Assembly (NCBI RefSeq): GCF_021504595.1
Contig: NZ_JACSGT010000001.1
Location: forward strand, 3,038,001-3,102,000
From: Chryseobacterium indicum
GTDB lineage: Bacteria > Bacteroidota > Bacteroidia > Flavobacteriales > Weeksellaceae
DNA: 64,000 bases
Direction of reading: 5' to 3'
Positions within the stretch are counted from its first letter, which is position 1. Every line of letters starts with the position of its first letter. Shown here one piece after another: positions 7,007 through 26,252 of this stretch. The notes below the pieces were generated by a model. It saw only the letters and a program-made list of their open reading frames with translations, did not search any database and had not been told where the DNA came from. The translations under genes were made by a program, and so were the position numbers.

Positions 7007-7035
7007 TAATAAGCCTGAATTTAACATTAAATGCT

Positions 7036-8664
7036 ATGGAAGAATTACTATTAAAATTATATGAAAAAAATATCCAGGTAAGTGTAGATAATAACTACAA
7101 ACTGAATTTAAAAATTAATGGGAATAATGATATTAAGGATATTATAGAAGAAGTTAAAATAAATAAGCAACTGCTTATCGATTATATCCACTCTATCAAT
7201 GCCAAGAAGAGCGATACCAGCAATAGCTCAGATATACTTAAAGAAACCCTTTCACAGATAAAGCTGCAGGAAACTTATGACGCAACGCCTCAGCAGAAAA
7301 GCGAGTTTTTAAGACGTTTTTTTACAAAAAAATATGCTTTTAATATAGTTTTTACAGTTCAATTGCCTGGGAGTGATAATGAAATAATCAGAAAAGTAAT
7401 TTATAAGCTGATTGAAAGACATGAAATCCTACGGACAACATTTCTGATAAAAGATAAAGAAATTAGGCAGAAAGTACATCCTGAAATATCTGATGATTTT
7501 GAAATTGAATATATAAATCTTACACAATCGGATAACAAAGACGAAATATTATTCGAAGAATTTCAGGATCTGAAATCTAATGTATTCGATTTTGAAAACG
7601 GACCTATTATCGCAGTGAAAATAATTGAATATAATGCAGATAATAAAGGTGTTATTTTTTCAATGCATCATCTTATTTCTGATATTGTTTCGGCAGATAT
7701 TATAAAAAAAGAAATTAGCCTTCTTTATAATTATTTTACCAAAAAAGATCAGCAGCATTTACCGGAACTAAAGTTTCAGTCTAAAGAATACGCATCTTGG
7801 GTATACAATTATATAAAAAGTCCTTCAGGAAAAAATAAAATAAACAGATATAAGGAAAAAATATTAAATAGTTTAAAACAAGACTCAGCCATTAATAGCA
7901 ATCATAAAGACAGTTACACTACTAAGCTGGAAAAAGAACTGAACATTGCGTTGGGAAAAAAAGACAGAAAGGATCTTCCGGATGTTTTTGGTGATATCTA
8001 TAACATCTATCCGGATCCGGGAGCATTTTATCAGAATTTTATAGAAGAAGGCAGGGTAAAAAAACTTAATAAACTGGCAACTATTTATCAATCAAGTATA
8101 TTTAATATGTTGATAGCTATTTTTGCTATTACTTTTTATAACAAAAATAAAAACAAAAGTGTAAGAATCGCTACTCTGCATTCCGGTAGGTTACTGCAGG
8201 AATTCGAAAATATAATTGGGTGGTTTGCCTCAGAAATAATTTTGTGTTTATCTGTAAAAGAAGATCTCAGTATAAGAAAGTTTTTAGAAAATATTTCTGA
8301 TACGCTTTTAGAAACTTCACAATATTCATTCTATCCATATGAAAAAATAATGCATGATCTTGACCTTAATCTTGATACTCTGGCTCCGATATTTATCAAT
8401 TATCAGGTTCAGAATGAGCGTTACAATATGGAAATTGCTCCTTTGCACCGCAGCAGCGGATTCGGATACTTTGTATTCGGCTGTGATTTTATACAATATG
8501 ATAATTGTATCAAAATGATGATAAACTATAATATCAATCACTTTTCGGGTACAGAAGTTCAGCAGTTGGTAGAAGATTGTAATTTATTAATAGATCAATT
8601 AGTTGCACAACCCGAAATCCTTATTAACGACCTATTCGTAGAACATACCACAAACTTAGTATAA
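7036..8664 (+). CDS. Free-standing NRPS condensation-domain protein with TubC-like docking domain
   Basis: About 542 residues from the ATG at 7036. A TTG at 7003 would also open this frame, but the ATG places the docking-domain start MEELLLKL exactly at the N-terminus, as in the NRPS proteins downstream. Residues 1-50 resemble a TubC N-terminal docking domain. Residues about 75-535 are a condensation domain with RHEILRTTF (core C2) and a C3 motif HHLISDI: the catalytic His212 and Asp216 are present, but the usual Gly after Asp is Ile. There is no A or T domain. It may load a starter acyl group, add a residue in trans, or join the peptide to another carrier; I cannot choose. Its docking domain resembles that of the first NRPS protein more than those of the other two. 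Confidence 0.85.
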   Translation: MEELLLKLYEKNIQVSVDNNYKLNLKINGNNDIKDIIEEVKINKQLLIDYIHSINAKKSDTSNSSDILKETLSQIKLQETYDATPQQKSEFLRRFFTKKYAFNIVFTVQLPGSDNEIIRKVIYKLIERHEILRTTFLIKDKEIRQKVHPEISDDFEIEYINLTQSDNKDEILFEEFQDLKSNVFDFENGPIIAVKIIEYNADNKGVIFSMHHLISDIVSADIIKKEISLLYNYFTKKDQQHLPELKFQSKEYASWVYNYIKSPSGKNKINRYKEKILNSLKQDSAINSNHKDSYTTKLEKELNIALGKKDRKDLPDVFGDIYNIYPDPGAFYQNFIEEGRVKKLNKLATIYQSSIFNMLIAIFAITFYNKNKNKSVRIATLHSGRLLQEFENIIGWFASEIILCLSVKEDLSIRKFLENISDTLLETSQYSFYPYEKIMHDLDLNLDTLAPIFINYQVQNERYNMEIAPLHRSSGFGYFVFGCDFIQYDNCIKMMINYNINHFSGTEVQQLVEDCNLLIDQLVAQPEILINDLFVEHTTNLV

Positions 8665-8665
8665 T

Positions 8666-10654
8666 ATGAAAAAAGATTTAATGTACATTTCACACCAAAA
8701 AGATATCGAGAAAGTTCACATCGGTTTTTTTCCCGTAAAAGGAAGATATTTCAGAACCGAAATGAAAAGCAGAGGAAATGGTCTGTTTGAATTAACTACA
8801 GATTTACCCAAAGGACGATCTTTTTTCCATTATTTTTTAAATGAAAATTTTGAGAAGCCCCTGAATAATAATGGAACTATGATTTCTCAATATGATGCTC
8901 TTAAAAGATCACCTGTAGTTTTTGAAACTGAAATATTTTGTCCTCTTCAGTTTGAAAACAGTCCCGTGTTTTTTAGCCATATAATAAATGAAGAATGGGA
9001 AATAAGAGCTATTACGCATCAGCAATGGATAGAAAATGTAAGTGTAGTAATAGATGAGAATGAATTTAATATGTCCAAACAGTATTCTCATAAAAATAAA
9101 ATTTACTGGAGTTGCAGAATGCAGCTGAATGAAGATGAAATTGATTATTGTATCAAGATTTCAGGTTCTAAGCAAGTTAAATATCTGCATGAAAAAAACT
9201 TTTTAGAGGATAAAATTAATAATGAGAATCTGATGAAAATCAATTTGTCAGAACAGAAAAATTGTAATGCAAATCCCATATTAAATACAGGGTATCAGAT
9301 ATTTCCGGACAGATTTTTAAAGAAAGGGGATTGTCTTCCCAATGTCAATCTGAAAGAGTGGGGAGATTTGCCAGATTATACCTCTTTTTTTGGGGGAACT
9401 ATTCAGGGGATTATAGAAAAGCTTGATTATATTTCTAGCCTTGGTACTGATTTCATTTATGTGAATCCGATTTTTCTGTCTGGAAGTTATCACAGATATG
9501 ATTGTGTAGACTATATGAAAATTGATCCTTTACTGGGAACCGAAGAGGATTTTGCTTTGCTTATCGAGGAAATGGAGAAAAGAAATATGAAGCTGATTCT
9601 GGATATTTCGTTAAACCATTGCAACAGAGATTTTTTTGCATTTAAAGACATTTGTAAAAATGGAGAAAATTCTAAATATCTGGATTGGTTTGAAATCTAT
9701 AATCTTCCACTGAAACCGGAAGAAAAAAACCAGTACAGTTGTTGGCACGGATATCATGAGCTTCCACAGTTTAATCTGGCAAATCATGAAGTGAGAAGTT
9801 ATTTCAAAGATATTATTAGATATTGGATGAATAATTTCCAGATAAACGGATGGAGGCTGGATGTCTGCACAGAAATACCTGATGATTTTATAAAAATCTT
9901 TACAGATGAAGTAAAAGCAATTAATCCGCAGGCACTGATTATTGCCGAAAACTGGCATAATACCTCCTCCGTATTTTCTTCTGAATCTGGTATTGACGGA
10001 TTTACAAATTACTCGCTGTATCTGGATATTATGATTCCGTTTTTTGTACAGGAGAATCTGTCTCTTAAAACGATGTGCTCTAAGATATTAGAGATGAATT
10101 ACAGCAATTCTTCAAAAGTTAACCGTCTTTCATGGAATTTCCTTAGTAATCATGATCTGCCTAGATTCAGCTCTATTATTAAAGATGAAAAAAAGTATAA
10201 TATGGCATTCGCTTTATTATACTCCTTACCTGGAACACCAGTTATTTATTATGGAGAAGAAACAAAAATGCTTGGTTTAGGTGATCCGTTGAATAGAGGA
10301 TGTATGAAGTTTGCTTCGGATGCAGAAAACGAAGACTTTATAAAATTGTTGCAGGATCTCAATGATCTTAGAAAAGATTTTCATGATATTTTCAATTATG
10401 GAAGTTTCTTTTTTCCTGTCATTAACAACAAAGAAAAAAAACTTATAGTAAGAAGAAGTTTAGACGATAAGAACCTGGCTTTCTGTTTTAATTTTGATAA
10501 TATCTCTCATGAATTTATTTTGGATTCTGACAAAAAAAATGCAATTGTTGTAGAGGCAAAATCCTTTGAAGTAGTCTTTTACGAAAATTCTGTTTATCAT
10601 TTTAACAGTCTTATCTCTGGAACAAAGAAAAATAAACTTGCATTGCTAGTCTAG
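8666..10654 (+). CDS. GH13 alpha-amylase family glycoside hydrolase
   Basis: A 662-residue GH13 enzyme. An N-terminal region of about 190 residues, probably beta-sandwich like that of cyclomaltodextrinases, precedes the TIM barrel, which starts near GYQIFPDRF (209-217). Conserved regions include DISLNH (313-318), the nucleophile Asp399 in GWRLDV, the acid/base Glu428 in AENW and the stabilizer Asp497 in SNHD. All three catalytic acids are present, so hydrolysis or transglycosylation of alpha-glucans is expected. There is no signal peptide, so it should act in the cytoplasm. It starts one base after the condensation gene ends, so it is firmly embedded in the peptide operon. Why a glucan enzyme is there is unknown: possibilities are a sugar donor for a glycosylated product or a hitchhiking glycogen module. 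Confidence 0.88.
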   Translation: MKKDLMYISHQKDIEKVHIGFFPVKGRYFRTEMKSRGNGLFELTTDLPKGRSFFHYFLNENFEKPLNNNGTMISQYDALKRSPVVFETEIFCPLQFENSPVFFSHIINEEWEIRAITHQQWIENVSVVIDENEFNMSKQYSHKNKIYWSCRMQLNEDEIDYCIKISGSKQVKYLHEKNFLEDKINNENLMKINLSEQKNCNANPILNTGYQIFPDRFLKKGDCLPNVNLKEWGDLPDYTSFFGGTIQGIIEKLDYISSLGTDFIYVNPIFLSGSYHRYDCVDYMKIDPLLGTEEDFALLIEEMEKRNMKLILDISLNHCNRDFFAFKDICKNGENSKYLDWFEIYNLPLKPEEKNQYSCWHGYHELPQFNLANHEVRSYFKDIIRYWMNNFQINGWRLDVCTEIPDDFIKIFTDEVKAINPQALIIAENWHNTSSVFSSESGIDGFTNYSLYLDIMIPFFVQENLSLKTMCSKILEMNYSNSSKVNRLSWNFLSNHDLPRFSSIIKDEKKYNMAFALLYSLPGTPVIYYGEETKMLGLGDPLNRGCMKFASDAENEDFIKLLQDLNDLRKDFHDIFNYGSFFFPVINNKEKKLIVRRSLDDKNLAFCFNFDNISHEFILDSDKKNAIVVEAKSFEVVFYENSVYHFNSLISGTKKNKLALLV

Positions 10655-10681
10655 CGATGTATAAACTAATAAATACCAACT

Positions 10682-12232
10682 ATGATAGTACATTTAGCAT
10701 CCGAAGTTGCACCATTTTATAAGAGGGGAGGATTAGGAGATGTTTTAGGAACTCTTCCTAATTACTTATCTAAAGATCAGCCTAATACAGTGATTTCGTT
10801 CTATTATAAAAATAGAATGAAAGGAGAGGATCTCAATTTTTTAGGAAGTTTTGACGTAAAAATTCAGAATATAAAATATACGTTTCATTATTATCATGTC
10901 AATCAATCAGGAGTAGATTATTATTTTATTAATATGTCTGATAGTGATATTTTCAGTGATATGGAAACAGGCGAGAGCGATTCATCAGACGATGATGGAG
11001 AAATGCCGTATAAAGAAAATTTTCCTTATATCATCTATTTCTATTTTGCTAAAGCAGCCATTCAGCTCATCCAGAATCTTAACCTTTCACCAGAATTGAT
11101 TTTATTTCACGATTGGCATGTATGCGGTTGTCTTGCTTATACTGAAGATATTAAAAAATTGAATGTGAGGAAGTCCTGTAAAACAGTAGTTCTAATTCAT
11201 AATTATGAATTTCAGGGAGAGATTTTACCTGATCTTTTAGATTTTCTGGATCCGGAAGTTAAAACTGAACTGGACTCGATTTATAAGCAATATGGTACAG
11301 CTACATTTTTTGCATTGGCTTTTAAAAATGCAGACTATGTCGCAACAGTGAGTAAAACGTATGCTCAAGAACTTATTCATAAGTCGGCTCCTCATTCCGG
11401 ACTCAAGTTTCTGGATCTTATAGAAAAAGACATATTTTCTTTACCTAATGGAATAGATGATGTGCATTGGTCGCCAGAATTTAGTCCGTACCTGCAGAAT
11501 CATTATAACAAAAATACCTATAAAGAGAAAAAAAGGGAGAATAAGCAGGAATTAATAAAAGAAATGAAATTTGACGATATTTCAAAACCAATTGTTTTAA
11601 TGATGGCTCGTTTAACCGAGCAAAAAGGAATCAACCTGTTGGTAGATCTTTGGAGTTCCGAAGATGCAGCTATGGACAGTATAGAAAATATTCTGAACGA
11701 AGGAGTTAATTTAATAGTTTATGGTCGTCCTGCAGGTGGAGTAAAGGGAAATATCCACAAAAGATTAGTAAAAGCAGAAGAAAAATTTAAAGGACGATTT
11801 AGTTATATTTCTACTTACACAGAAGAAAAAGCTCATAGATTTTTAGCAGGATCCGATATGATTTTATGTCCTTCTCTTTTTGAACCATGCGGATTGGTAC
11901 AGCTTTACGGACTGGCTTTTGGTACAATTCCCGTGGTAAGACCTGTAGGGGGTCTAAAAGACACTGTAATTCCACATACTGAATCATCAGAATCAAGTAC
12001 AGGTTTTTATATTGATGAATTTAAAAATGAAAGCCTGAGAAACGCGATACGGCAAGCTTCAGATATCTATTATCATCATAAAGCCAACTGGGATGCGCTT
12101 ATTGAAAGAGCAATGAGCCAGAGCTTTTCTTGGGATATCACAGTTAATCAGTATTATAATTTTTTTGAATACATACAAGAAAATAACAAAGAACACAAGC
12201 CAAAAATAAATTATCGAGAAATTATGGTGTAA
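10682..12232 (+). CDS. GT5 glycogen/starch synthase-like glycosyltransferase
   Basis: A 516-residue GT-B enzyme of family GT5. The nucleotide-sugar loop KRGGLGD (residues 14-20), FHDWH (142-146), NGID (256-259) and the C-terminal CPSLFEPCGL (396-405, catalytic-site Glu401) match glycogen synthases. It is somewhat longer than the usual 480 residues because of an acidic insertion near 95-110 (SDSSDDDGE). It lies 27 bases after the GH13 gene and 57 before the first NRPS gene. Transfer of glucosyl units from ADP- or UDP-glucose is expected from the family. The normal partners of glycogen synthesis (glgB, glgC) are not in the window, so a specialised role beside the peptide is possible but unproven. 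I give no symbol because it may not be the housekeeping GlgA. Confidence 0.85.
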   Translation: MIVHLASEVAPFYKRGGLGDVLGTLPNYLSKDQPNTVISFYYKNRMKGEDLNFLGSFDVKIQNIKYTFHYYHVNQSGVDYYFINMSDSDIFSDMETGESDSSDDDGEMPYKENFPYIIYFYFAKAAIQLIQNLNLSPELILFHDWHVCGCLAYTEDIKKLNVRKSCKTVVLIHNYEFQGEILPDLLDFLDPEVKTELDSIYKQYGTATFFALAFKNADYVATVSKTYAQELIHKSAPHSGLKFLDLIEKDIFSLPNGIDDVHWSPEFSPYLQNHYNKNTYKEKKRENKQELIKEMKFDDISKPIVLMMARLTEQKGINLLVDLWSSEDAAMDSIENILNEGVNLIVYGRPAGGVKGNIHKRLVKAEEKFKGRFSYISTYTEEKAHRFLAGSDMILCPSLFEPCGLVQLYGLAFGTIPVVRPVGGLKDTVIPHTESSESSTGFYIDEFKNESLRNAIRQASDIYYHHKANWDALIERAMSQSFSWDITVNQYYNFFEYIQENNKEHKPKINYREIMV

Positions 12233-12289
12233 ATCTTTAAAATTCTATCATCAATTTTTAACAAAAAACTGTTGACAAAACAAATATCC

Positions 12290-15200
12290 ATGGAAAAACT
12301 TTTATTAAAAATTCTCGAGAAAAATGTCAAAATAGGTCTTATTGGCGATCAGTTGAAAATTAATTTCCCAAAAGATTTTCAGAGTGACACTTTGATAGAT
12401 GAGATCCGGGAGAATAAGGACGCATTGATTCGTCATATCCGTCATCTTTCACAGCAACATTCGGGTTATACCCCTATTCCATCTTCGCCGAAGAAGGATT
12501 ATTATGCCTTATCTTCCGTTCAGAAACGTCTGTATTTTATCTATAAATTCGACAGCAGTTCATTGGCTTACAACATGCCTCAGATAGTTCGATTGAAGGG
12601 GACTTTAGATTCAGCTCTTTTAGAGTCTGTTTTCCGTTCTCTGATCTCTCATTACGAAATATTGAGAACCCGTATCGGAGTTGTTTCTGAAATTCCTGTC
12701 CAGTATATTGATGATTATATAGACTTCAATATTGAGGAATATACATGTTCTGAATCTGAAATTGCAGGAATGCTTTCTTCCTTCATAAGACCTTTTGATC
12801 TTGAAAAAGGTCCCCTTTTGAGAGTCTGTGTTCTTCACCTTTCCGAGACAGAACATATTTTAGCTGTTGATATGCATCATATTATCACAGACGGGGTTTC
12901 CAACGGGATTTTACTCCATTCCTTCATGTTGTTATACCGAGGAGAACCATTACCTGCTCTATCAGTCCACTATAAAGATTATTCGGAGTGGCAGCAAAGT
13001 TCAGAACATCATTCTTCTCTTGAACTTCATAAAAATTTCTGGCTGGACCAGTTTAAGGGCGAACTCCCAGTCATCGACTTACCCACAGATTATTCACGTC
13101 CTTTGGTTAAAAGATACGAAGGAGATAAGGTTGGTTTTACATTAAGTTCGGAGCAGACAGAGCGATTAAAAAAGCTTTCGGGAAATGCAGGTGTAACGAT
13201 GTTCATGAGCACATTATCTTTGTATTATATCTTACTTAAAAAACTTACCGGGCAGGATGATTTGGTAATAGGTACTCCTGTTGCCGGCAGAGATCATGTT
13301 GATTTGGAACATCAGGTTGGAATGTTTGTTAATACTTTGGCATTACGAGCCAGCTGTAATGGAAACGAAAGCTATAGTGAATTTCTTAACCGCGTGAAAT
13401 CCATTACTCTCGATTGTTTTGGCAACCAGCTTTACCAGTATGAATCTCTGCTGGAGGATCTCAAAGTAGCAAGAGATACAGCAAGAAATCCTTTATTTGA
13501 TGTGATGTTCTCTTATCAGAATTTTGAGGAACCCGAGTTGTCGATGGGTAACCTTATGGTGAGTTCTTATTCTCATAATCATGTAGATGCAAAATTTGAT
13601 ATCAGTCTCACGGTATCTGAAGATAAAGATCAGCTTTTTTTGTCATTTGAATATTCAACGAATTTATTTAAAAGAGAAAGCATAGAACGCTTTGCGGAGT
13701 ATTTTCAGAATATTGTAGATGCTGTAACGGCAGATCCTGAGGTCATTATCAAAGAAATACAGATGCTGTCATCTTCAGAGAAGGATATTATTTTGTATGA
13801 ATTCAATGATACGGATGTTGATTATCAAAACGATAAAACAATACTGGAAATGTTTGAAAGACAGGTGAATATTAATGGGGATAATATCGCAATGATTTGT
13901 GAAAATCAATCATTAAATTATCTTCAATTAAATAAAAGAGTAAATCAGCTTTCGAATTACCTTATTCATTCAAAAAAAATAAATAAAGGAGATATTGTAG
14001 GAGTTCATTTTGAAAGAGGCATGGATATGATTGTATCCTTACTTGCCATATTAAAAATTGGAGCTGTATATGTAGCATTAGATCCGGAATATCCTGTCGA
14101 AAGAATCAACACAATTATCGAGGAGTCTGAAATGAAGACTGTCATTACCAATTTATCTCATAAGATTAGTCAACATATTCGAACGGGCTTAACAGATATC
14201 ATCGCTGAAAAAAGTATGATAGCAATAGAATCTGATCAGTCTCCTGAGATTCAGGTTTCAGGAGAAGGTTCTGCATATATTGTCTATACTTCGGGAAGTA
14301 CTGGAGTTCCTAAAGGTATTGTTATTGCGCATGATTCTCTTTTAGATTATAGTTTAACATTCAGAGATTACTTTTCCATTAGTGAAAAAGATAGAGTAAT
14401 ACAGCAGTCATCATTAACTTTTGATACATCAGTTGAAGAGATATTTCCTGCTTTGATTTCCGGAGGAACCATTATTATTGTATCTTCTGGAGGCCGGGAT
14501 GCTGAGAACCTTATTCATAATATAAATGTGCATCAGGCAACAATACTAAGTACAACTCCTTTAGTATTAAACGAAATCAACAGTAGTGTTCATCTTCTCG
14601 GGAAAAGTCTTCGGGCTATTATCAGTGGCGGAGATAATTTATCAGCAAACCATATAGACGCTCTTATTAAAGTATTTCCTGTTTACAATACTTATGGACC
14701 TTCAGAATCTACCGTTTGTATTACATATTACAGACTGGAAGATCTGTCGCAAATATCTGTTATAGGAAAACCTATTGCCAATAGAAAAATATACATTTTG
14801 GATCAGTATGGTGAGCCTTGCCCTTTAGGAGTAATCGGAGAAATCTATGTAGCAGGAAAAGGTTTGGCAAAAGGATATCTTAATAATAGAGCTTTAACGC
14901 ATGAAAAGTTTACTGAGAATAAAAATATAAAAGGACAGCGTATCTATTCTACCGGAGATATGGGAAAATGGCTTTCTGACGGAAATATTCGGTTTGCAGG
15001 AAGAAGAGATAATCAGCTTAAAATAAGAGGGTACAGAGTTGAATTAGAAGAAATAGAAAACAGACTTTTAGATCATCCTGATATCAGCGAGGCAATTGTA
15101 ATATGTAAAGAAAAAAACAATCATAAATATCTTCTCGCTTTTTATAAATCAGAAAAGACGCTTGATGATAAGGAAATTAAAGCCTTTCTTTCTGTATCAT

Positions 15201-15628
15201 TACCTGATTATATGGTGCCGGTTTCCTATTGCATTATACAGAATATTCCAATGCTAGTAAACGGTAAACCCGACAGAAAAAAATTAACCTCTTTAGAAAT
15301 TGAAATAGAATTAATACATCTTGAGCCGGAAAATGAAATTGAAGAAAAACTTATCCATATTTGGTCGGAAATTCTTCATATTGATCCCGAACTGATTAGT
15401 ACAAATGCTAGTTTCTTTGAATTGGGAGGACATTCTCTAAAAGCCGTTTCCTTAGTTAATAAAATCGAAAAACTCTGGAATGCAAAAATTTCTCTTCAGG
15501 AGATTTTTTATAACACCACCGTTCAGCTTATCGCTAAAATAATAGAAAGCCAAATATGGATCTGCCATACAGCAGATGAATCAGATGACCAACACACAAA
15601 AAATAATATAAAAAAAATAATAATATAA
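12290..15628 (+). CDS. NRPS module C-A-T with TubC-like docking domain (module 1)
   Basis: I chose the ATG at 12290 rather than the TTG at 12272, because it places the docking domain (MEKLLLKILEKN) at the N-terminus; length is then about 1112 residues. Order: docking 1-50, condensation about 70-500 with intact HHIITDG (196-202), adenylation about 525-1000 with A3 near 664-676 and FDTS near 710, and carrier domain with GGHS serine near 1049. By-eye alignment to the GrsA Phe domain gives the pocket code D-T-E-S-I-G-T-V-C, close to a reported lysine code, so a basic residue is my guess. No epimerization domain. The C terminus ends NIKKIII, a possible docking tail. The condensation domain is almost identical to that of the next protein, whereas the A domain is different. 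Confidence 0.92.
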   Translation: MEKLLLKILEKNVKIGLIGDQLKINFPKDFQSDTLIDEIRENKDALIRHIRHLSQQHSGYTPIPSSPKKDYYALSSVQKRLYFIYKFDSSSLAYNMPQIVRLKGTLDSALLESVFRSLISHYEILRTRIGVVSEIPVQYIDDYIDFNIEEYTCSESEIAGMLSSFIRPFDLEKGPLLRVCVLHLSETEHILAVDMHHIITDGVSNGILLHSFMLLYRGEPLPALSVHYKDYSEWQQSSEHHSSLELHKNFWLDQFKGELPVIDLPTDYSRPLVKRYEGDKVGFTLSSEQTERLKKLSGNAGVTMFMSTLSLYYILLKKLTGQDDLVIGTPVAGRDHVDLEHQVGMFVNTLALRASCNGNESYSEFLNRVKSITLDCFGNQLYQYESLLEDLKVARDTARNPLFDVMFSYQNFEEPELSMGNLMVSSYSHNHVDAKFDISLTVSEDKDQLFLSFEYSTNLFKRESIERFAEYFQNIVDAVTADPEVIIKEIQMLSSSEKDIILYEFNDTDVDYQNDKTILEMFERQVNINGDNIAMICENQSLNYLQLNKRVNQLSNYLIHSKKINKGDIVGVHFERGMDMIVSLLAILKIGAVYVALDPEYPVERINTIIEESEMKTVITNLSHKISQHIRTGLTDIIAEKSMIAIESDQSPEIQVSGEGSAYIVYTSGSTGVPKGIVIAHDSLLDYSLTFRDYFSISEKDRVIQQSSLTFDTSVEEIFPALISGGTIIIVSSGGRDAENLIHNINVHQATILSTTPLVLNEINSSVHLLGKSLRAIISGGDNLSANHIDALIKVFPVYNTYGPSESTVCITYYRLEDLSQISVIGKPIANRKIYILDQYGEPCPLGVIGEIYVAGKGLAKGYLNNRALTHEKFTENKNIKGQRIYSTGDMGKWLSDGNIRFAGRRDNQLKIRGYRVELEEIENRLLDHPDISEAIVICKEKNNHKYLLAFYKSEKTLDDKEIKAFLSVSLPDYMVPVSYCIIQNIPMLVNGKPDRKKLTSLEIEIELIHLEPENEIEEKLIHIWSEILHIDPELISTNASFFELGGHSLKAVSLVNKIEKLWNAKISLQEIFYNTTVQLIAKIIESQIWICHTADESDDQHTKNNIKKIII
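12364..13810 (+). repeat. Copy 1 of 1.45-kb near-identical condensation-domain repeat
   Basis: This stretch matches 15705-17151 at a constant offset of 3341 bases with no indel seen at the points checked, and only about ten amino-acid differences. It runs from inside the docking domain to just after the condensation domain, then identity stops abruptly. The pattern fits recent duplication or gene conversion. Confidence 0.9.
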
Positions 15629-15630
15629 TC

Positions 15631-18600
15631 ATGTATGAACTAATTAGTAAACTAAAGCAAAATAATATTAAAATAGCTCTGTCAGAAGATAATTTAGAGT
15701 TAAGTTTCCCAAAAGATTTTCAGAGTGACACTTTGATAGATGAGATCCGGGAGAATAAGGACGCATTGATTCGTCATATCCGTCATCTTTCACAGCAACA
15801 TTCGGGTTATATCCCTATTCCATCTGCGCCGAAGAAGGATTATTATGCCTTATCTTCCGTTCAGAAACGTTTGTATTTTATCTATAAATTCGACAGCAGT
15901 TCATTGGCTTACAACATGCCTCAGATAGTTCGATTGAAGGGGATTTTAGATTCAGCTCTTTTAGAGTCTGTTTTCCGTTCTCTGATCTCTCATTACGAAA
16001 TATTGAGAACCCGTATCGGAGTTGTTTCTGAAGTTCCTGTCCAGTATATTGATGATTATATAGACTTCAATATTGAGGAATATACATGTTCTGAATCTGA
16101 AATTGCAGGAATGCTTTCTTCCTTCATAAGACCCTTTGATCTTGAAAAAGGCCCCCTTTTAAGAGTCTGTGTTCTTCACCTTTCCGAGACAGAACATATT
16201 TTAGCTGTTGATATGCATCATATTATCACAGACGGGGTTTCCAACGGTATTTTACTCCATTCCTTCATGTCGTTATACCGAGGAGAATCATTACCGGCTC
16301 TATCAGTCCACTATAAAGATTATTCTGAGTGGCAGCAAAGTTCAGAACATCATTCTTATCTTGAACTTCATAAAAATTTCTGGCTGGACCAGTTTAAGGG
16401 CGAACTCCCAGTCATCGACTTACCCACAGATTATTCACGTCCTTTGGTTAAAAGATACGAAGGAGATAAGGTTGGTTTTGCATTAAGTTCGGAGCAGACA
16501 GATCGATTAAAAAAGCTTTCGGGAAATGCAGGTGTAACGATGTTCATGAGCACATTATCTTTGTATTATATCTTACTTAAAAAACTTACCGGGCAGGATG
16601 ATTTGGTAATTGGTACTCCTGTTGCCGGCAGAGATCATGTTGATTTGGAACATCAGGTTGGAATGTTTGTTAATACTTTGGCATTACGAGCCAGCTGTAA
16701 TGGAAACGAAAGCTATAGTGAATTTCTTAACCGCTTGAAATCCATTACTCTCGATTGTTTTGGCAACCAGCTTTACCAGTATGAATCTCTGCTGGAGGAT
16801 CTCAAAGTAGCAAGAGATACAGCAAGAAATCCTTTATTTGATGTGATGTTCTCTTATCAGAATTTTGAGGAACCCGAGTTGTCGATGGGTAACCTTATGG
16901 TGAGTTCTTATTCTCATAATCATGTAGATGCAAAATTTGATATCAGTCTCACGGTATCTGAAGATAAAGATCAGCTTTTTTTGTCATTTGAATATTCAAC
17001 GAATTTATTTAAAAGAGAAAGCATAGAACGCTTTGCGGAGTATTTTCAGAATATTGTAGATGCTGTAACGGCAGATCCTGAGGTCATTATCAAAGAAATA
17101 CAGATGCTTTCATCTTCAGAGAAGGATATTATATTGCATGATTTCAATGATAGTTTTTATCCATTCACTGGTCATTCAACCGTTTTGGATTTGTTGTCGG
17201 ACCGAGTTTCCGAATTTTCGGAATCAACTGCTTTAATTTTTGGCGAATCAGAGATGAGCTATTCTGCATTCTGGGATTCTTCGCTTCGTTACGGCAATTA
17301 TCTACGCACGGAACATGGATTAAATAGAGGCGATCTTGTGGGTGTTCTTTTGGAACGCAGTGAAGAGATGGTTTTGAGTTTGTATGGTATTCTTTGTTCA
17401 GGGTGTGCTTATGTTCCGATCGATATAAATCTTCCGGCTTCCCGTATTGAAAAGATCATTGAGGATTCCGGAATCAGGGTTTTGGTGAGTCGCGGAAGGT
17501 ATGTTCAGGACTCTTTGTCCGATCTATGCAAGTTAATTGATCTGGATGAAGTTTCAGATTCTATCAATTCTTATCCTGTTGTTTCTCCGGTATCTGTTGA
17601 AGGTAGTGACCTTGCGTATGTGATCTACACATCAGGATCCACAGGTAATCCTAAAGGAGTTATGATAGAGCACGGTTCATTATTGAATCTTGTTCAAAGC
17701 ATGGATCATCGTTATCCTCTGGAAAAAGGTGATCGTTATCTTTTAAAGACTCTGTATTCTTTTGATGTTTCTGTTGCGGAACTTTTCGGTTGGTTCCACC
17801 GTGGAGGAAGTCTTGTCATTCTGGGTCAGGACATGGAGAAGAATTCTGTTGAGCTTGTTCGGGCAGTTCGTGATTATGAAATCAGCCACATCAATTTCGT
17901 TCCATCGATGTTCGGAGTGTTTATGGATACATTTGAGGATATTGGAAAAGACTCTGTAAACAGCTTGCAGTATATCTTTTTGGCAGGTGAGGTTTTTCCG
18001 TTAGAAATGCTTCATAAGTTCAAATCTTATAATCTGCCTGCTAAAATCCAAAATCTTTATGGTCCAACAGAAACAACAGTTTACAGCTGTGGTTACAACA
18101 CAGATAAATGGTCTTCCTTGAATGTCCGTATTCCGATCGGCCGTGCTTTGGATAATATGGGGATGTATGTTCTGGACAGTCATCATCATCTTCAGCCGAT
18201 TGGTATTTGGGGAGAGCTTTGTGTAGGCGGTTTGGGTGTTGCGAGAGGTTATCTTAACAACAGTTCTCTGAGTACTGAGAAATTTATTACGGTTGATTGG
18301 TTAGATTCAGGACGTTTGTACAAGACAGGAGATATCGGGCGCTGGCTTTCAAACGGAACGCTTGAGATCATGGGAAGACTCGATCATCAGGTAAAACTTA
18401 GGGGCTTCCGAATTGAGTTGGGAGAGATCGAGTCTAAAATTCTTGGTTATCCGGGTGTTAGTGGCAGTGTGGTTGTTTTAAAGGAAATAGGAGGAGATGC
18501 CCATCTTGTTGGTTATTACACTTCAGAGGAAGCAATTTCTTTCACTTCTCTGCGAGAATATCTTCAGAGTGAGCTTCCTGAATATATGGTTCCACAGTAT

Positions 18601-18995: not shown

Positions 18996-21900
18996 ATGTA
19001 TAAATTGATTAATAAGCTTAAGCAAAATAATATAAAAGTATCCGCAGTAGGTGAAAATCTAGAATTGGATTTTCCGGAAAATTTTAATGCTGATTCCATT
19101 ATAAATGAAATTAAAGAAAATAAAGAGGCACTGATTTCTTATATCGGAAAAGCCAGTCAGATGCAAAAGGAGATACCTAAAATTAAGGAACAGAAATATT
19201 ATCCATTGTCTCATGCCCAGAGAAGACTCTGGATCATAGATCAGCTGGCTGATGATAAAAGAATGTACAATGTTCCTATGATTCATTCATTTAAGACATT
19301 GAATGTGGAGGCTTTTGAAAGAGCTTTATTAGGAATATTGAAGAGACACGAAATTTTGCGTACCACCATTAATGTTATAGAGGGGAAACCACAGCAATTT
19401 ATTTGTAAAATCGAAGATTTTCCGTTTGAGTTAATTAGAATTACTGCAGAGAATGATGATACTGATGCAATTATCTCGAAAGAGCTTTCTTATCAGTTTG
19501 ATCTGACAAAATCATCAGTTAGAGCGTCATTAATTCAGTATTTAGACGGAAGTTTTGATTTCATATTCCTCATTCATCATATTGTTACGGATGCATGGTC
19601 TATGAATGTTCTCCAAAAGGATTTTCTTGCTTTATATGAATATTATTCAGAAGAAAAGCCTTTACAGTTGCCAGATCTTAGAATTCAGTATAAGGATTAT
19701 ACTTTATGGCAGCATGAGCAGCTTCAGCAGGGTCATTTCAGCCATTCACGTGAATACTGGCTTAATCAATTTAGTGGAGAAATACCTTCTGTAAAATTAC
19801 CTATAGACTTTAGAAGGGAAGATTCGGGAGAAGGTCTGGGGGAAGAACTATCTGTATGTTTGCCTCCTTCAATGGTAAAAAATCTTGAGGCAGTTGCACA
19901 TGATTGTGGAGCTTCGTTTTTTATGGTAATGGTAGCGGTGGCCAATGTTTTACTGCATAGATATACAGGGCAGGAAGATCTTGTGATGGGAACTCCTGTT
20001 AGCGGAAGAAACCATCCAGAACTGGAAAGTCAGGTAGGATTTTACAGCAATACAATTGCGCTAAGATCTTCAGTATCAGGAAATGAAAGCTTTCGAGAAA
20101 TTCTTTCCAGAGTATGCTCTGTAATGTTGGAAAGCTATGAGCATCAATTTTATCCGTATGACCTTTTGGTAGATGAGTTAAAGTTGGGAAAAGATATGAA
20201 TAAAAACCCTCTTTTTGATATCATGATCTCCTTAAATGAAGATCAAAGTACAGAAAACGGTGAAGCAAGTTATTTTGAAGGAGTCCGAATTATAAATTCA
20301 GGGTTAGCAAAGTTTGATCTTAGTTTTGCTTTTAAAAGAATGAATGATAATGGTTTATATATCCATGTTGATTATAATACAGACCTTTTTAAAAGGGAGA
20401 AAATATTAAGAATGGTCGGGCATTTAAGAAATTTAATTGTAGAAATATCGAAAGATTCTGATAAACCTGTTTCAGAGATTGAATATCTGTCTCAGGAAGA
20501 GAAATATCAGATTCTTAATGTTTTTAATAATACAAAAGAAGACTATAATCTTTCTACAAGCATTAAAGATCTCATAGAAGAACAGGTCGCCAAATCTCCG
20601 GATGATATTTGTCTGTTTTCACACGAATATAATTTAACATTCAGAGAGTTAAACAGTATTTCAAATCAGTTAGCAAGATATCTGAGTGAAAACTATAGCA
20701 TAAAAAAAGGAGACCATATAGGCATGAATATGGATATAGGTGTCGACAGAATCATCGTCTTAATAGCGGTTGTAAAACTCGGAGCAGTATATGTTCCTAT
20801 AGATCCGTCATATCCGAAAGAAAGAAAACAGTACATTATTGATGACACCAGACTTACCGTTCTTATCACAGAAGATATTAATGATAAATCTGATCAATAT
20901 TCAATGATAATGATGAATGATATAAGAGGATTATTAAATAATTATTCAAATGAAAATCTTAATGTAGATATCAGTGCGGATGATATATTTACGATTTTGT
21001 ATACTTCAGGATCTACAGGTAATCCTAAAGGTGTGCTCATCAAAAATATCGGACTTGTCAACAGAATGCAATGGTTATGGAATACTTATAAATTTAGTAA
21101 AGAAGATGTTATCTATCAAAAAACTCCTTTTATATTTGATGTATCTATAGGTGAATTTTTCATGCCGCTTTGCTTCGGAGCTAAGCTTTTGGTAGCAGCA
21201 AGTGACACTGCCAAGGAAATCATTTCTAATGTTCTGCAATTTAAGGTTACTTATATTCATTTCTCACCAACGATGTTAAATATTTTTCTGGAATTCAATC
21301 CGGAAGATGTAGAAAAATTACATTCAATAAGATATGTTTTTGCCAGTGGAGAAGAGCTTCTTAAAGAAACCGTAAAAAGATTTTATACAAAACTTGATAT
21401 TCCATTAATCAACTTATACGGACCAACGGAAGCTTCAATTGAAGCAAGTGGCTACGAAACTAAAAAAGGAGATGAAATTATACCTATAGGAAAACCAATA
21501 GCCAATGTTAACCTTTACATATTGGATAGTAATTACAAACTTTTACCGATCGGAATACCCGGCGAAATAGGAATTGCAGGAATCGGACTTGCAAAAGGAT
21601 ATCTTAATCAGGAAGAGATGACAGCCGAAAGATTTATCAATAATTCATACAAACATGACGGGTATGACAAGATCTATAAAACTGGGGATATTGGAGTTTG
21701 GAACGAAAAGGGAGAAATAGAATTTTTAGGGAGAAAAGATAACCAGATCAGAATTGGCGGATCAAGAATTGAACCTGGAGAAATAGAGAGTAAAATTCTT
21801 GAGCATCATGGTGTGCAGGAAGCTGCGGTTGTGGTTAATCAGGATAACTTTAAGAATTATCATTTGATTGCTTATTATGTAAAAAGACAGGAAGCTAATT

Positions 21901-24578
21901 CTATCGAAGAGATTACCACATCTGCAAAAGCAGAAATTACAACTAAGAATGTTGGCGCATATCAAAAGCACGAATTAGCAGAGGTAAGTTCAGGTGTAAA
22001 AGTACAAGAATGGTTTGAAAGAACTGCTGAAGAAAATCCGGACAGAATAGCATTAGTTTCTGAAAATAAAAAAATGACTTACAGAGAACTTAATAATAAG
22101 GCAAATAAATTGGCTTTATTGTTAAAATCCGATTACAATATTAAGTCACAAGATTTTGTCGGAATCGTCATGGAAAGATCAGAGAAGATGATTATTTCTA
22201 TTTTTGCAATTTTAAAAGCAGGAGCAGCATATGTTCCGATAGATAAGGAATACCCCGATTCCAGAATACAGACAATCCTTCAAGATGCTGCCGTAAAAGT
22301 GATCATATCAGACTTTAACAACAAGACTAGAAATATTTTTGATGATAAGAATACTATTATATTTGATGAAATTCAAGAAGAGCTGAATACCGAATCTGGA
22401 ATTGAAAATATTAAAAGCACTGAAGCCAATGATTTATGTTATATATGTTACACATCAGGTTCTACAGGAAGACCTAAAGGTGTGATGATACGTCATGATT
22501 CAGTTTCGGATTATGTGAATACTTTTAAAAATTATTTTAAATTAACGGAAGAAGATGTTGTTATTCAGCAGTCGTCTATATCATTTGATACTTCTGTAGA
22601 AGAGATCTTCCCGATTCTTTGCTGTGGAGGAAAACTTATTATTGTACCAGAAGGAGGAAGAGATATTAATGCCATTATTAAAGCTGTAAACAATCATAAA
22701 GTAACGGTAATAAGCGTAACACCTTTAGTTATAAATGAGATAAACATGAGATATAATGATCTTACACATATTCCAAAACTAATGATTAGCGGAGGAGAAG
22801 AATTAAGAGCATCTTATATTGATAAACTTATCAATTTAACAAATATTTATAATACTTATGGACCTACAGAAACTACGGTTTGTGCGACTTTCGCTAAAGT
22901 AGAAAATACATCTAAATGTAATGTCATTGGTCATGCTATTGATAATCATAAAGTTTATCTTCTGGATGATAATATGCAGGAAGTAAAACATGGAGAGACT
23001 GGAGAAATTTTTATTGCAGGAGCTGGTCTTGCTAAAGGCTACCTGAACAGACAGGATGAAACTGACAAAAATTTTCTGAATAACCCTATTGATGGAGGAT
23101 TGTTTTACAAAACGGGAGATATGGCGAGATATAATAATGATGGTCTTCTTGAATTTTGCGGAAGAAAAGATCACCAAGTAAAAATCCGTGGTTATAGAGT
23201 TGAACCCGCAGAAGTAGATCTTATTCTTGAAAATTTCAGTGGTGTTATCAACTGTATTACGATTCCTAAAGCTGATGCAGATGGAAATAAACATCTTATT
23301 GCATATTATACTGCAATTGAAGAACTGGATAGTGATCAAATACGTAAATTTTTAAATGATCAATTGCCTCATTATATGGTTCCTGATTATTTTATGAAGG
23401 TAGATGGCTTTGAACAGACTATTAACGGAAAAATTAAAACAAACAGTTTGCCAGTACCATATGCCTTAACACTTGATAAAAAACTTGAAATAGAATTAAG
23501 GGATTTTCTTCGAAAAAAACTTCCGCTTTATATGATTCCTACTCATTTTATGAATCTTGATAAGTTACCTGTAACGGCGACAGGGAAGGTTGACAGAAAA
23601 ATGCTTGAGAAGAAAAACCCTTTATTTAGTGAAAAACAAGTTGTGGTACCGCCTAAAAACATGGTGGAAACAAAAATTCTTGAAATATGGGAAGAATGTC
23701 TCAAATATCCGGTAAAAAGCACTCATGTTAATTTCTTTGAAGTTGGAGGAAACTCTATAAAAGCTACGCAAATTTTAACCATGTTATTCAAAGAGTTTAA
23801 TTGTGATATTACACTGAAGGATATATTCAATAATTCTACTGTGGCTGATCTTGCAGAAGTATTAACAAATAAAACCTCGGATAAAAGTCTTATTGTTAAG
23901 CTGAATACAATTAAGGCAGATTTTCCGGATATGTATTTAATCCCTCCGGTTATAGGATCTTCAACTATATTTAAAAACTTAGGAACTGCATTCAATCAAG
24001 CATATAATGTATATGGTATTCAGTATAAGGGATTCGATTATGATGTTGCCTTCGATAAGAGTATTGAAGAAATGGCCGAAACTTGTGTTGCAGAGATTCT
24101 GAAAGTAATAGATGACAAAAAACTATTTCTTTTAGGATACTCAATGGGGGTTCCTATTGCTTTTGAAGCTGCAAAAAGACTGGAGGGTATGGGATATGAA
24201 GTTAGTCTGATTCTTGTTGATAGAGGAGCACAGGACGAAACATCCTATCATAGCCTAAGTAAAGAAAATATTAGTGAAATTCTTAAGAATGAACTTTATG
24301 ACTGGACGAAGGATATCCTTGATAAAGACATAGAGAGAATTGAAAATATGGTGCTTAATAACTTAAATGTACTTGATAAATACAGAATATCAGGAAAAGT
24401 TAACGCTAATGTTATTACTATAGAAGCTTCGGAAAACGGAAACGGAACAGATATGATGACCTGGAAAAACTTTACATCGGGAAATTTCAATCATTCTTTT
24501 ATTTTTGCAAATCATTACAGTATTTTTAACGCAGAAAATTGTGCAGAATTTGTAAACTTAATAAACAGGCAAGCCTGA
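18996..24578 (+). CDS. Terminal NRPS: C-A1[A2 inserted]-T-TE
   Basis: A 1860-residue protein two bases after module 2. Docking 1-50; condensation about 66-495 with HHIVTDA (194-200, Gly replaced by Ala). A1 begins near 515: A3 at 669-679, FDVS at 714-717, NLYGPTE at 806-812, A8 ending EPGEIES at 926-932. A1 stops near 962 without A9/A10. A second A domain follows at about 1000-1485 with its own A3, A4, A5, A8, A9 (LPHYMVP, 1457-1463) and A10 (INGK). A second A9/A10 segment comes next (1498-1537: LPLYMIP, TGKVDRKML), which reads as the missing end of A1. Then carrier domain (Ser1587) and thioesterase (Ser1716 in GYSMG, Asp1742, His1840). Pocket codes by eye: A1 D-V-G-H-F-S-L-I-E, serine-like; A2 D-T-E-S-I-G-T-V-C, the same as module 1. 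Confidence 0.92.
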   Translation: MYKLINKLKQNNIKVSAVGENLELDFPENFNADSIINEIKENKEALISYIGKASQMQKEIPKIKEQKYYPLSHAQRRLWIIDQLADDKRMYNVPMIHSFKTLNVEAFERALLGILKRHEILRTTINVIEGKPQQFICKIEDFPFELIRITAENDDTDAIISKELSYQFDLTKSSVRASLIQYLDGSFDFIFLIHHIVTDAWSMNVLQKDFLALYEYYSEEKPLQLPDLRIQYKDYTLWQHEQLQQGHFSHSREYWLNQFSGEIPSVKLPIDFRREDSGEGLGEELSVCLPPSMVKNLEAVAHDCGASFFMVMVAVANVLLHRYTGQEDLVMGTPVSGRNHPELESQVGFYSNTIALRSSVSGNESFREILSRVCSVMLESYEHQFYPYDLLVDELKLGKDMNKNPLFDIMISLNEDQSTENGEASYFEGVRIINSGLAKFDLSFAFKRMNDNGLYIHVDYNTDLFKREKILRMVGHLRNLIVEISKDSDKPVSEIEYLSQEEKYQILNVFNNTKEDYNLSTSIKDLIEEQVAKSPDDICLFSHEYNLTFRELNSISNQLARYLSENYSIKKGDHIGMNMDIGVDRIIVLIAVVKLGAVYVPIDPSYPKERKQYIIDDTRLTVLITEDINDKSDQYSMIMMNDIRGLLNNYSNENLNVDISADDIFTILYTSGSTGNPKGVLIKNIGLVNRMQWLWNTYKFSKEDVIYQKTPFIFDVSIGEFFMPLCFGAKLLVAASDTAKEIISNVLQFKVTYIHFSPTMLNIFLEFNPEDVEKLHSIRYVFASGEELLKETVKRFYTKLDIPLINLYGPTEASIEASGYETKKGDEIIPIGKPIANVNLYILDSNYKLLPIGIPGEIGIAGIGLAKGYLNQEEMTAERFINNSYKHDGYDKIYKTGDIGVWNEKGEIEFLGRKDNQIRIGGSRIEPGEIESKILEHHGVQEAAVVVNQDNFKNYHLIAYYVKRQEANSIEEITTSAKAEITTKNVGAYQKHELAEVSSGVKVQEWFERTAEENPDRIALVSENKKMTYRELNNKANKLALLLKSDYNIKSQDFVGIVMERSEKMIISIFAILKAGAAYVPIDKEYPDSRIQTILQDAAVKVIISDFNNKTRNIFDDKNTIIFDEIQEELNTESGIENIKSTEANDLCYICYTSGSTGRPKGVMIRHDSVSDYVNTFKNYFKLTEEDVVIQQSSISFDTSVEEIFPILCCGGKLIIVPEGGRDINAIIKAVNNHKVTVISVTPLVINEINMRYNDLTHIPKLMISGGEELRASYIDKLINLTNIYNTYGPTETTVCATFAKVENTSKCNVIGHAIDNHKVYLLDDNMQEVKHGETGEIFIAGAGLAKGYLNRQDETDKNFLNNPIDGGLFYKTGDMARYNNDGLLEFCGRKDHQVKIRGYRVEPAEVDLILENFSGVINCITIPKADADGNKHLIAYYTAIEELDSDQIRKFLNDQLPHYMVPDYFMKVDGFEQTINGKIKTNSLPVPYALTLDKKLEIELRDFLRKKLPLYMIPTHFMNLDKLPVTATGKVDRKMLEKKNPLFSEKQVVVPPKNMVETKILEIWEECLKYPVKSTHVNFFEVGGNSIKATQILTMLFKEFNCDITLKDIFNNSTVADLAEVLTNKTSDKSLIVKLNTIKADFPDMYLIPPVIGSSTIFKNLGTAFNQAYNVYGIQYKGFDYDVAFDKSIEEMAETCVAEILKVIDDKKLFLLGYSMGVPIAFEAAKRLEGMGYEVSLILVDRGAQDETSYHSLSKENISEILKNELYDWTKDILDKDIERIENMVLNNLNVLDKYRISGKVNANVITIEASENGNGTDMMTWKNFTSGNFNHSFIFANHYSIFNAENCAEFVNLINRQA
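21993..23454 (+). other. Adenylation domain apparently nested inside another adenylation domain
   Basis: This segment encodes residues about 1000-1487 of the terminal NRPS. It starts with a typical A-domain N-terminus (VQEWFERTAEENPDRIAL), has all core motifs through A10, and ends just before ELRDFLRKKLPLYMIP, which is where the interrupted first A domain resumes. Upstream, A1 breaks off after HLIAYYVKRQ, the strand that normally precedes that same segment. The insertion point lies between A8 and A9, the site used by methyltransferase insertions in other NRPSs. No condensation or carrier domain separates the two A domains. Confidence 0.75.
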
Positions 24579-24617: not shown

Positions 24618-25322
24618 ATGAAAATTAATTTATATAGTATACCATATGCAGGAGGATCCTCTGTAGTCTACAATAAATGGTCAGAAAATCTGGAATCTTC
24701 TGTCAATATTAAGCCTGTTGAGCTTTCGGGAAGAGGAAAACGTTTTAATGAGCCATTATATAAAGACATTCATGAAGCCGTTGAAGATATTTTTAATAAT
24801 ATTAAAAAAGAAATTACAGAAACACCATATGCTTTATTCGGACACAGCATGGGGGCATTAATTGCCTTTGAGCTTGCACAGCGTATTCGGAAAGCAGGCT
24901 TACCTTCACCTATTCATATTTTTATCTCAGGACGCAGTGCTCCGCACGTAAATAAAACAGGAGAGAAAATGTACAGCAGAATGGAAGATGCAAAATTCAG
25001 ACAGGAAGTTTTAAATCTTGGTGGTACACCTAAAGAGTTTTTTAGCCATCCGGAACTTCTGGAACTTTTTCTTCCAGTCTTAAAAAATGATTTTAGGCTT
25101 GTAGAAAACTATTCTTACAATTATAATTACCAGCCTCTAAATGTTGATATGACCGTACTTTTGGGAAAAGATGACGATTTAACTGAAACAGAAGGCGAAA
25201 GTTGGTCAGAATATACCACCGAATCTTGCGAAATTAATTACTTGGACGGTGGACATTTCTTTATTAATGAGCAGAGGCTGAATATTACTCAAATAATTAA
25301 TGATTCCTTAAAAATTACATAA
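24618..25322 (+). CDS. Type II thioesterase (GrsT-like alpha/beta hydrolase)
   Basis: A 234-residue stand-alone thioesterase of the kind that accompanies NRPS operons and clears misprimed or stalled acyl groups from carrier domains. The nucleophile Ser77 sits in GHSMG (75-79), Asp186 lies in LLGKDDD and His213 in GGHFF, giving a complete triad. The N-terminal IPYAGGSS motif is typical. It starts 39 bases after the terminal NRPS and is the last gene of the tightly packed operon. Cytoplasmic. Confident family call; the exact group it clears is not visible. Confidence 0.92.
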   Translation: MKINLYSIPYAGGSSVVYNKWSENLESSVNIKPVELSGRGKRFNEPLYKDIHEAVEDIFNNIKKEITETPYALFGHSMGALIAFELAQRIRKAGLPSPIHIFISGRSAPHVNKTGEKMYSRMEDAKFRQEVLNLGGTPKEFFSHPELLELFLPVLKNDFRLVENYSYNYNYQPLNVDMTVLLGKDDDLTETEGESWSEYTTESCEINYLDGGHFFINEQRLNITQIINDSLKIT

Positions 25323-25607: not shown

Positions 25608-26252
25608 ATGGTAATTTTATATACATTTATCGAGCAAGACAAACATAAATATTTATTAGATAAATACTCAAGTATTTGGTCTGAAGACTTTGATACAAGA
25701 ATTCTAAAATATAGAAGATGGCAGGATGCTCAGTCATCAATACTTGGAAGAATACTTTTGCAATATGGTTTAAATAAATATTTTGGAATAAAAGATTATG
25801 AAATAGATCAGACATCTAATCATAAACCTTTTTTGAAAAATCTGGAAGTATGTTTTAATATATCACATGCCGGAAATCTTGTGATTTGTGGAATCAGCAA
25901 ACTACCAATAGGAGTTGACATAGAATATATAGATAATAAAATAAATCTTATTGACTTTAAATCTCAAATGACTTCAAATGAGTTCCATAAAATACAAAAT
26001 TCACAAGATAAGATTAAAAGCTTTTTTGTTTATTGGACGGAAAAAGAAGCCGCTATTAAAGCTCATGGAAAAGGACTGCTAATTCCTTTAAAGTCATTTG
26101 AAATTTTTCAAAATCAAACTATAATTGAAAATGAAAAATTTTATTTAAAACAAATATTTATTCACGAAGAGTATCAATGTTGCGTTGCTTCGATTAATGA
26201 CATTAAGCTTGAAGACCTAGAAATAGAAAAAGTTAACATAAATTTATTATAA
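25608..26252 (+). CDS. Sfp-type 4'-phosphopantetheinyl transferase
   Basis: A 214-residue Sfp-family transferase that moves the phosphopantetheine arm of coenzyme A to the serine of carrier domains, here presumably those of the three NRPS modules. Visible motifs are NISHAG (84-89), GVDIE (102-106, Mg-binding Asp104 and Glu106) and WTEKEAAIK (143-151). Length is normal. It is separated from the thioesterase gene by 285 bases with a hairpin, so it may be expressed partly on its own. Base composition is AT-rich like the A1 part of the terminal NRPS. Family call is firm. Confidence 0.93.
   Translation: MVILYTFIEQDKHKYLLDKYSSIWSEDFDTRILKYRRWQDAQSSILGRILLQYGLNKYFGIKDYEIDQTSNHKPFLKNLEVCFNISHAGNLVICGISKLPIGVDIEYIDNKINLIDFKSQMTSNEFHKIQNSQDKIKSFFVYWTEKEAAIKAHGKGLLIPLKSFEIFQNQTIIENEKFYLKQIFIHEEYQCCVASINDIKLEDLEIEKVNINLL

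Follow-up and report, generated by a model that had tools for sequence, protein, structure and literature searches.

How two adenylation (A) domains, one inserted in the other, can work with a single condensation (C) domain and a single carrier (T) domain is the question raised by a non-ribosomal peptide synthetase (NRPS) gene at 18996-24578 (plus strand) of the window, i.e. the 64,000-nucleotide stretch of the Chryseobacterium indicum genome that was analyzed in the present study. The gene is one unbroken reading frame of 1860 amino acids and encodes, in order, a C domain, motifs A1-A8 of an outer A domain, a complete inner A domain, motifs A9-A10 of the outer domain, a T domain and a thioesterase (TE) domain. 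Pfam placed Condensation at residues 66-507, two AMP-binding stretches, the inner of which matched at 1007-1350 and has its own A9 and A10, PP-binding at 1560-1622 and Thioesterase at 1647-1855. A motif scan found P-loops at residues 670 and 1153, A5 at 808 and 1288, A7 at 894 and 1371 and A8 at 912 and 1389, then A9 twice in succession (1457 and 1509) and A10 twice (NGKIK at 1477 and TGKVD at 1529), and downstream of both A10 motifs lies one T domain (GGNS at 1584) followed by TE. Our own profiles returned the same arrangement as core 516-962, core 1000-1438, Asub (the A9/A10 piece) 1448-1488, Asub 1500-1538, T and TE. The order core-core-Asub-Asub, with A8 before the insert and A9/A10 after it, is formally that of an interrupted adenylation domain, and the insert has A3, the A4 aspartate, A5, A7, the A8 hinge and the A10 lysine, all features by which an NRPS adenylation domain is recognized.

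All parts of the gene lie on the plus strand. A TubC_N-like docking domain at 19002-19142 is a sub-threshold Pfam match (21.6 bits against 26) and precedes the C domain (19191-20516, HHIVTD, by Pfam and motifs). The outer core with motifs A1-A8 and pocket DVGHFSLIE(K) occupies 20541-21881 (motifs, own profiles and pocket code) and is joined by a linker at 21882-22004 to the inner core with its own A1-A8 and pocket DTESMSTVC(K) at 22005-23309 (Pfam, own profiles and pocket code). According to own profiles and motif counts, the inner A9-A10 piece at 23337-23459 carries K1479 (23430-23432) and is followed by LPVP, and the outer A9-A10 piece at 23493-23609 carries K1531 (23586-23588) and lacks LPxP. 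The single T domain (GGNS) at 23667-23855 and the TE domain (GYSMG) at 23925-24560 were both found by Pfam, motifs and own profiles. An earlier note on this DNA, made from the letters alone, had proposed one A domain nested in another at the A8/A9 junction, both with intact ATP-binding motifs and A10 lysine, with only one C and one T domain between them; motif order and own profiles bear out the nesting and motif order the insertion point, the motifs agree for both domains, and Pfam and the motif scan found just one C and one T.

A motif-order search was run on 209 different proteins, obtained from two homologue searches by taking the 120 best matches of each, and on the query. Scanning these listed homologues and the query with our own profiles gave core-core-Asub-Asub in at least 41 proteins (the query and 40 clusters at 90% identity, counting P0127, in which the outer core is a 130-residue fragment) as against 417 ordinary core-Asub units. 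In one listing each nested protein outscored the first ordinary one among the matches listed (last nested 1004, 841 and 765 bits; ordinary 747). The A-in-A arrangement is a conserved NRPS module, usually terminal: of the 41 listed nests, 37 have the layout C-A[A]A-T-TE. Another two are followed by C-A-T-TE, which makes the terminal position a rule with exceptions, and the other two stop at T; one of the latter is P0126, whose sequence is labelled partial. Between the inner core and inner Asub there are 9-13 residues in 40 listed family members (P0127 left out), and the median of the corresponding gap in 416 ordinary domains is 11. A 90% identical nest gene occurs in Chryseobacterium taeanense, and source names among the listed nests, many clusters being unlabelled, include uncultured Chryseobacterium, Aquimarina, Fulvivirga, Flavobacterium cupreum and Tenacibaculum mesophilum, all of them Bacteroidota. 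In genome searches with E cut-offs of 1e-100 to 1e-85 and overlapping genome sets, a match reaching the outer A9/A10 end was found in 2 of 320 genomes of the family (the same 2 among 395 of the order), 1 of 395 of the phylum, 3 of 398 of one genus of a neighbouring family and 0 of 397 of the neighbouring family; a genome labelled as the same species had no match at 1e-100.

For a FastTree phylogeny of A cores, 552 of 569 rows were kept after identical rows and those with fewer than 250 columns were dropped. All 42 outer cores formed one clade (support 0.996), with 3 tips (0.88) and then 8 more (0.999) as neighbours, all ordinary A domains and mostly with the code DVWH..L[IV][DE], which we take to be that of serine. 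The outer domain thus appears to descend from a serine-code A domain. For the inner cores, 42 of 43 formed one clade (0.82; P0126 left out of the clade test) among ordinary A domains of DTES.STVC type, presumably Lys-like. The inner domain of P0126 has the code DVGELLSID and falls in the tree among domains whose code we assume to be of ornithine type, as if the insert of this protein had been exchanged for another A domain. Outer and inner distances were correlated in 40 proteins (Mantel, r 0.80, 0 of 2000 permutations as high; P0126 and P0020 left out), suggesting that the pair has mostly been inherited together.

The pocket code was DTE[ST].[STN]T[VI]CK in the inner domain of 40 of the 41 listed nests and DVGH.SL[IV]EK in the outer domain of 33, the other outer pockets being DVAGVAQIYK (1), DVIHFSVIDK (1) and DV[GS]WFSQIDK (4); the remaining two nests are P0020, with an eroded outer domain, and P0127, with a fragment. 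Pocket positions were placed by hand following GrsA numbering, since the alignment shifts two of them in the rows for the outer domain. The codes differ as the earlier note had claimed, presumably serine-like versus basic-like; a literature search for these pocket codes found none. Comparison with the C. taeanense gene, a single pair, gave dN/dS of 0.092 for the outer core, 0.155 for the inner core, 0.068 for C, 0.115 for TE and 0.58 for the fast-evolving linker. By this measure both A domains look constrained, and because the value for the outer core is below that for the inner, the inner is not marked as the more essential of the two.

The asymmetry between the two domains concerns the lysine of motif A8, to which we take K443 of luciferase to be equivalent, and the LPxP motif. 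The A8 lysine was scored as five residues before a conserved arginine, R439 in PMC11253843. In that paper, K517 of A10 is described as stabilizing adenylation and K434 of A8 as stabilizing thiolation (PMC11253843), and another places LPxP at the A-T junction in contact with Asub and reports that LPxP mutations in EntF severely impaired enterobactin production (PMC8097286). For luciferase, K443A is reported to have kept adenylation with the second half-reaction suppressed, and a screen for adenylation-only donors, run with H245E as background, also yielded K443R (PMC8631863).

Among the listed nests, adenylation motifs are intact in 39 of 41 outer domains, the exceptions being P0020, eroded, and P0127, mostly missing (the inner domain of both is intact), and in 40 of 41 inner domains, where the sole exception is P0038 with an altered P-loop. 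The A10 lysine is likewise kept in 40 of 41 outer and 41 of 41 inner domains. At the A8 position lysine is present in all 41 inner domains, K1396 (23181-23183) in the window by the family residue count, but in only 1 of 40 outer domains (P0127 left out), which otherwise have serine (27), arginine (6) or asparagine (6); the only outer domain with the lysine is the eroded P0020. The earlier note makes no mention of this absence. An earlier tally of 43 outer rows contained the P0127 fragment, and the 40-row count is used here. The outer domain of the window has arginine at this position (residue 919, 21750-21752, by the family residue count), a milder change that may still work. LPxP follows the outer Asub in 1 of 41 listed nests and the inner Asub in 28, being absent in 13 of 41 inner domains, but among ordinary A domains, too, it is often absent (present in 64 of 98 serine-code and 14 of 32 DTES-code domains). 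The outer domain therefore lacks the usual T-loading trait insofar as the A8 lysine (1/40) and LPxP (1/41), a sequence proxy only, can stand for it. Both A9/A10 pieces scored closer in Asub similarity to the serine-code group, which is the larger. One comparison used 33 homologues and the query, with P0004 and P0010 cut at 1900 residues.

Ordinary A cores had the A8 lysine in 458 of 471 rows, a count that includes related rows, and the three nearest serine-code tree neighbours of the outer domain keep it. Of the 13 without it, two resemble acyl-ligase-type loading domains, three represent a single module found in three related genomes and two are both A domains of P0186; given these 13 the lysine is not indispensable, and since the outer domains form a single clade its loss there may have been one historical event. 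Insertion at the A8/A9 site is not a general cause of the loss, because control A domains in which 299-498 residues are inserted there had the lysine in 124 of 124 cases and LPxP in 119 of 125, and uninterrupted A domains of the same protein set had the lysine in 114 of 114. The control set was drawn from one methyltransferase-interrupted query, its named members are largely cyanobacterial and three domains were unparsed; 121 of the 125 inserts (91 proteins) carry GxGxG, a motif typical of SAM methyltransferases. Taken together, the domain adjoining T has lost two features connected with the loading of T, both of which have mostly been kept by the inserted domain.

These patterns are consistent with a division of labor in which the inner domain probably loads the single T domain and the outer domain probably adenylates without normal transfer. 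In this proposal the inner domain would be the fully equipped one, activating a basic amino acid (presumably Lys-like, and Orn-like in one relative), which it would load onto T. The outer domain, which keeps the residues for forming an aminoacyl-adenylate but is without the A8 lysine and LPxP, is predicted to adenylate a substrate of its own with no normal hand-over to T. We consider the odds on this proposal as a whole to be even. A possible use for the outer adenylate, suggested only by the loss of thiolation features, would be acylation of an amine of the T-bound residue. In its most specific and rather improbable form the outer domain would be a built-in ligase: having adenylated an acid, serine-derived or larger, it would pass this directly to an amine of the T-bound diamino acid (Lys- or Orn-like) loaded by the inner domain. 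If true, one C-T unit would incorporate two building blocks, with no need for an additional condensation or carrier domain.

An alternative explanation could be that the two A domains each supply a different amino acid to the single T domain, so that the module either makes alternative products or iterates to add two residues in turn. This would account for the retention of adenylation motifs and A10 lysine in both domains of nearly all members, the low dN/dS in both cores, the arginine rather than serine or asparagine at the A8 position of the window and also the pattern of pocket changes, since the outer code has changed in six members with the inner constant and the reverse has occurred in P0126, as expected if both domains are used. 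It would not account for the loss from the outer domain of the A8 lysine and LPxP that insert-bearing controls keep; moreover, there is a single C domain to serve serine-like and basic acceptors, which are dissimilar, and the inner code belongs to one type in 40 of 41 nests, with no sign of loose choice. We regard this reading as somewhat unlikely. For the choice of substrate put forward in the earlier note, two equal domains sharing a single T would not be the preferred interpretation, because the outer domain is without the A8 lysine and LPxP.

A further possibility is that only the inner domain is used and the outer is a scaffold or relic serving folding or placement of T. The degenerate outer domain of P0020 and its deletion for the most part in P0127, both with the inner domain intact, fit such a role, as does the missing A8 lysine in 39 of 40 outer domains. 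Against it stand a full set of adenylation motifs in 39 of 41, a dN/dS of 0.09, the pocket DVGH.SL[IV]EK in 33 of 41 and coherent-looking codes in six more, and we think this explanation improbable. For the same reasons of intact motifs and low dN/dS, the idea in the earlier note of one silent domain fits badly. That note had also raised a carrier loaded in trans, and loading by the inner domain of a separate carrier protein would suit its normal A-domain motifs and its position not directly beside T, but an orphan NRPS carrier domain was absent from the 22 cluster genes scanned and from the parts of three other nest clusters that were covered, making this very unlikely. Finally, an artefact of assembly or recombination in which a T-C segment was lost, including the misassembly between 21880 and 23620 for which the earlier note had allowed, has nothing in its favour and practically no probability because 40 other listed clusters share the layout with near-constant spacing, another species has a 90% identical gene and dN/dS is low.

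The surroundings of the nest also bear on how the module is used. Downstream are a stand-alone (type II) thioesterase (24618-25322, plus strand) and a phosphopantetheinyl transferase (25608-26252, plus strand), and in three other genomes (G1416, G1638 and G1591) the nest is directly followed by a homologue of the thioesterase and, one gene later, by a homologue of the phosphopantetheinyl transferase. In those genomes the nest ends a different stretch, consisting of NRPS modules only as far as covered, whereas the cluster of the window, which starts upstream near G000:C1:2983862 (window start 3038001), mixes NRPS and polyketide synthase genes. Because the stretches it ends differ, the nested module appears to serve as a closing unit in more than one kind of assembly line. 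In G1416 an ornithine-carbamoyltransferase homologue (OTCace, L041:8122-9057) lies between the thioesterase and the phosphopantetheinyl transferase and may supply a carbamoylated building block. In the window, an ordinary C-A-T module at 12272-15628 (plus strand) has an A domain with the pocket DTESISTVC, the same code type as the inner domain by pocket code and alignment; this A domain is 43% identical to the inner domain over 479 residues.

Several other features of the cluster were observed. A stand-alone condensation-domain protein at 7003-8664, with HHLISD, without A or T domain and with an N-terminus that by eye is docking-like and has no Pfam match, was considered as supplier of the "missing" condensation and dropped, there being none in the stretches of the three other nest clusters. 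Upstream of the window, at G000:C1:3010242-3016361 (L027:242-6361), is a second interrupted A domain of the cluster, in which a luciferase-like monooxygenase (PF00296) splits the core at about profile position 223 of 450, estimated to be between A4 and A5. A Beta-lactamase-family peptidase fused to an ABC ATPase is encoded at 2944-6015, presumably resembling the prodrug-activating peptidases of other NRPS clusters, and a second beta-lactamase-family gene, with TPR, is at the left window edge (1-1122). TauD-type oxygenases occur at 1147-2094 and at L017:14354-15307, both in the cluster, as is an Asp/Glu racemase at 2110-2901. An alpha-amylase-family gene and a starch/glycogen synthase gene (8666-12232) form part of the NRPS operon, separated by very short gaps. 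Two neighbouring NRPS genes share 98.4% identity over 1453 bases in their start and C domain (12360-13811 and 15700-17152), which is, to judge by the sequence, a recent duplication or gene conversion.

The A-in-A module is a new form of interrupted A domain, although its absence from print is not proven. According to three sources, A8/A9 is the usual insertion site of interrupted A domains (PMC8949500, PMC11355689, PMC8097286), and the inserts named in the literature covered are methyltransferase, oxidase, monooxygenase, reductase/ketoreductase and epimerase (PchE). An A domain inside an A domain was not found in the literature searched, the scope of which included PMC8341994 and PMC12565237 besides the papers cited on single points, with a dedicated 2020 survey of interrupted A domains outside that scope. 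The A8/A9 site can thus accommodate another A domain in full, an arrangement that selection has maintained across divergent Bacteroidota. Nature may in this way separate adenylation from thiolation within one module, which bears on the coupling of A-domain half-reactions through domain alternation, and the arrangement is a natural scaffold for module engineering.

Among the closest known systems, ordinary DTES.STVC domains share the code type of the inner domain and are adjacent to it in the tree, but are found in normal modules. Firefly luciferase K443 mutants and ANL amide bond synthetases, in which adenylation is uncoupled or followed by amide formation (PMC8631863, PMC10804368), may offer a parallel, although these are stand-alone enzymes and the analogy would extend to the outer domain only. 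The serial A-A-T proteins P0115 and P0186 have, like the nest, two A domains before one T, but each A domain completes its own A9/A10 before the next begins; with the A8 lysine missing from both of its A domains, P0186 may be another way to separate adenylation from loading. A further group is that of the A8/A9-type interrupted A domains (A-M-A, as in TioS, KtzH and McyA), which likewise have a second catalytic domain between A8 and A9. Unlike these, the insert of the nest is a complete A domain rather than an auxiliary tailoring domain such as a methyltransferase or oxidase, and its outer domain is without the A8 lysine and LPxP that the insert-bearing control domains keep.
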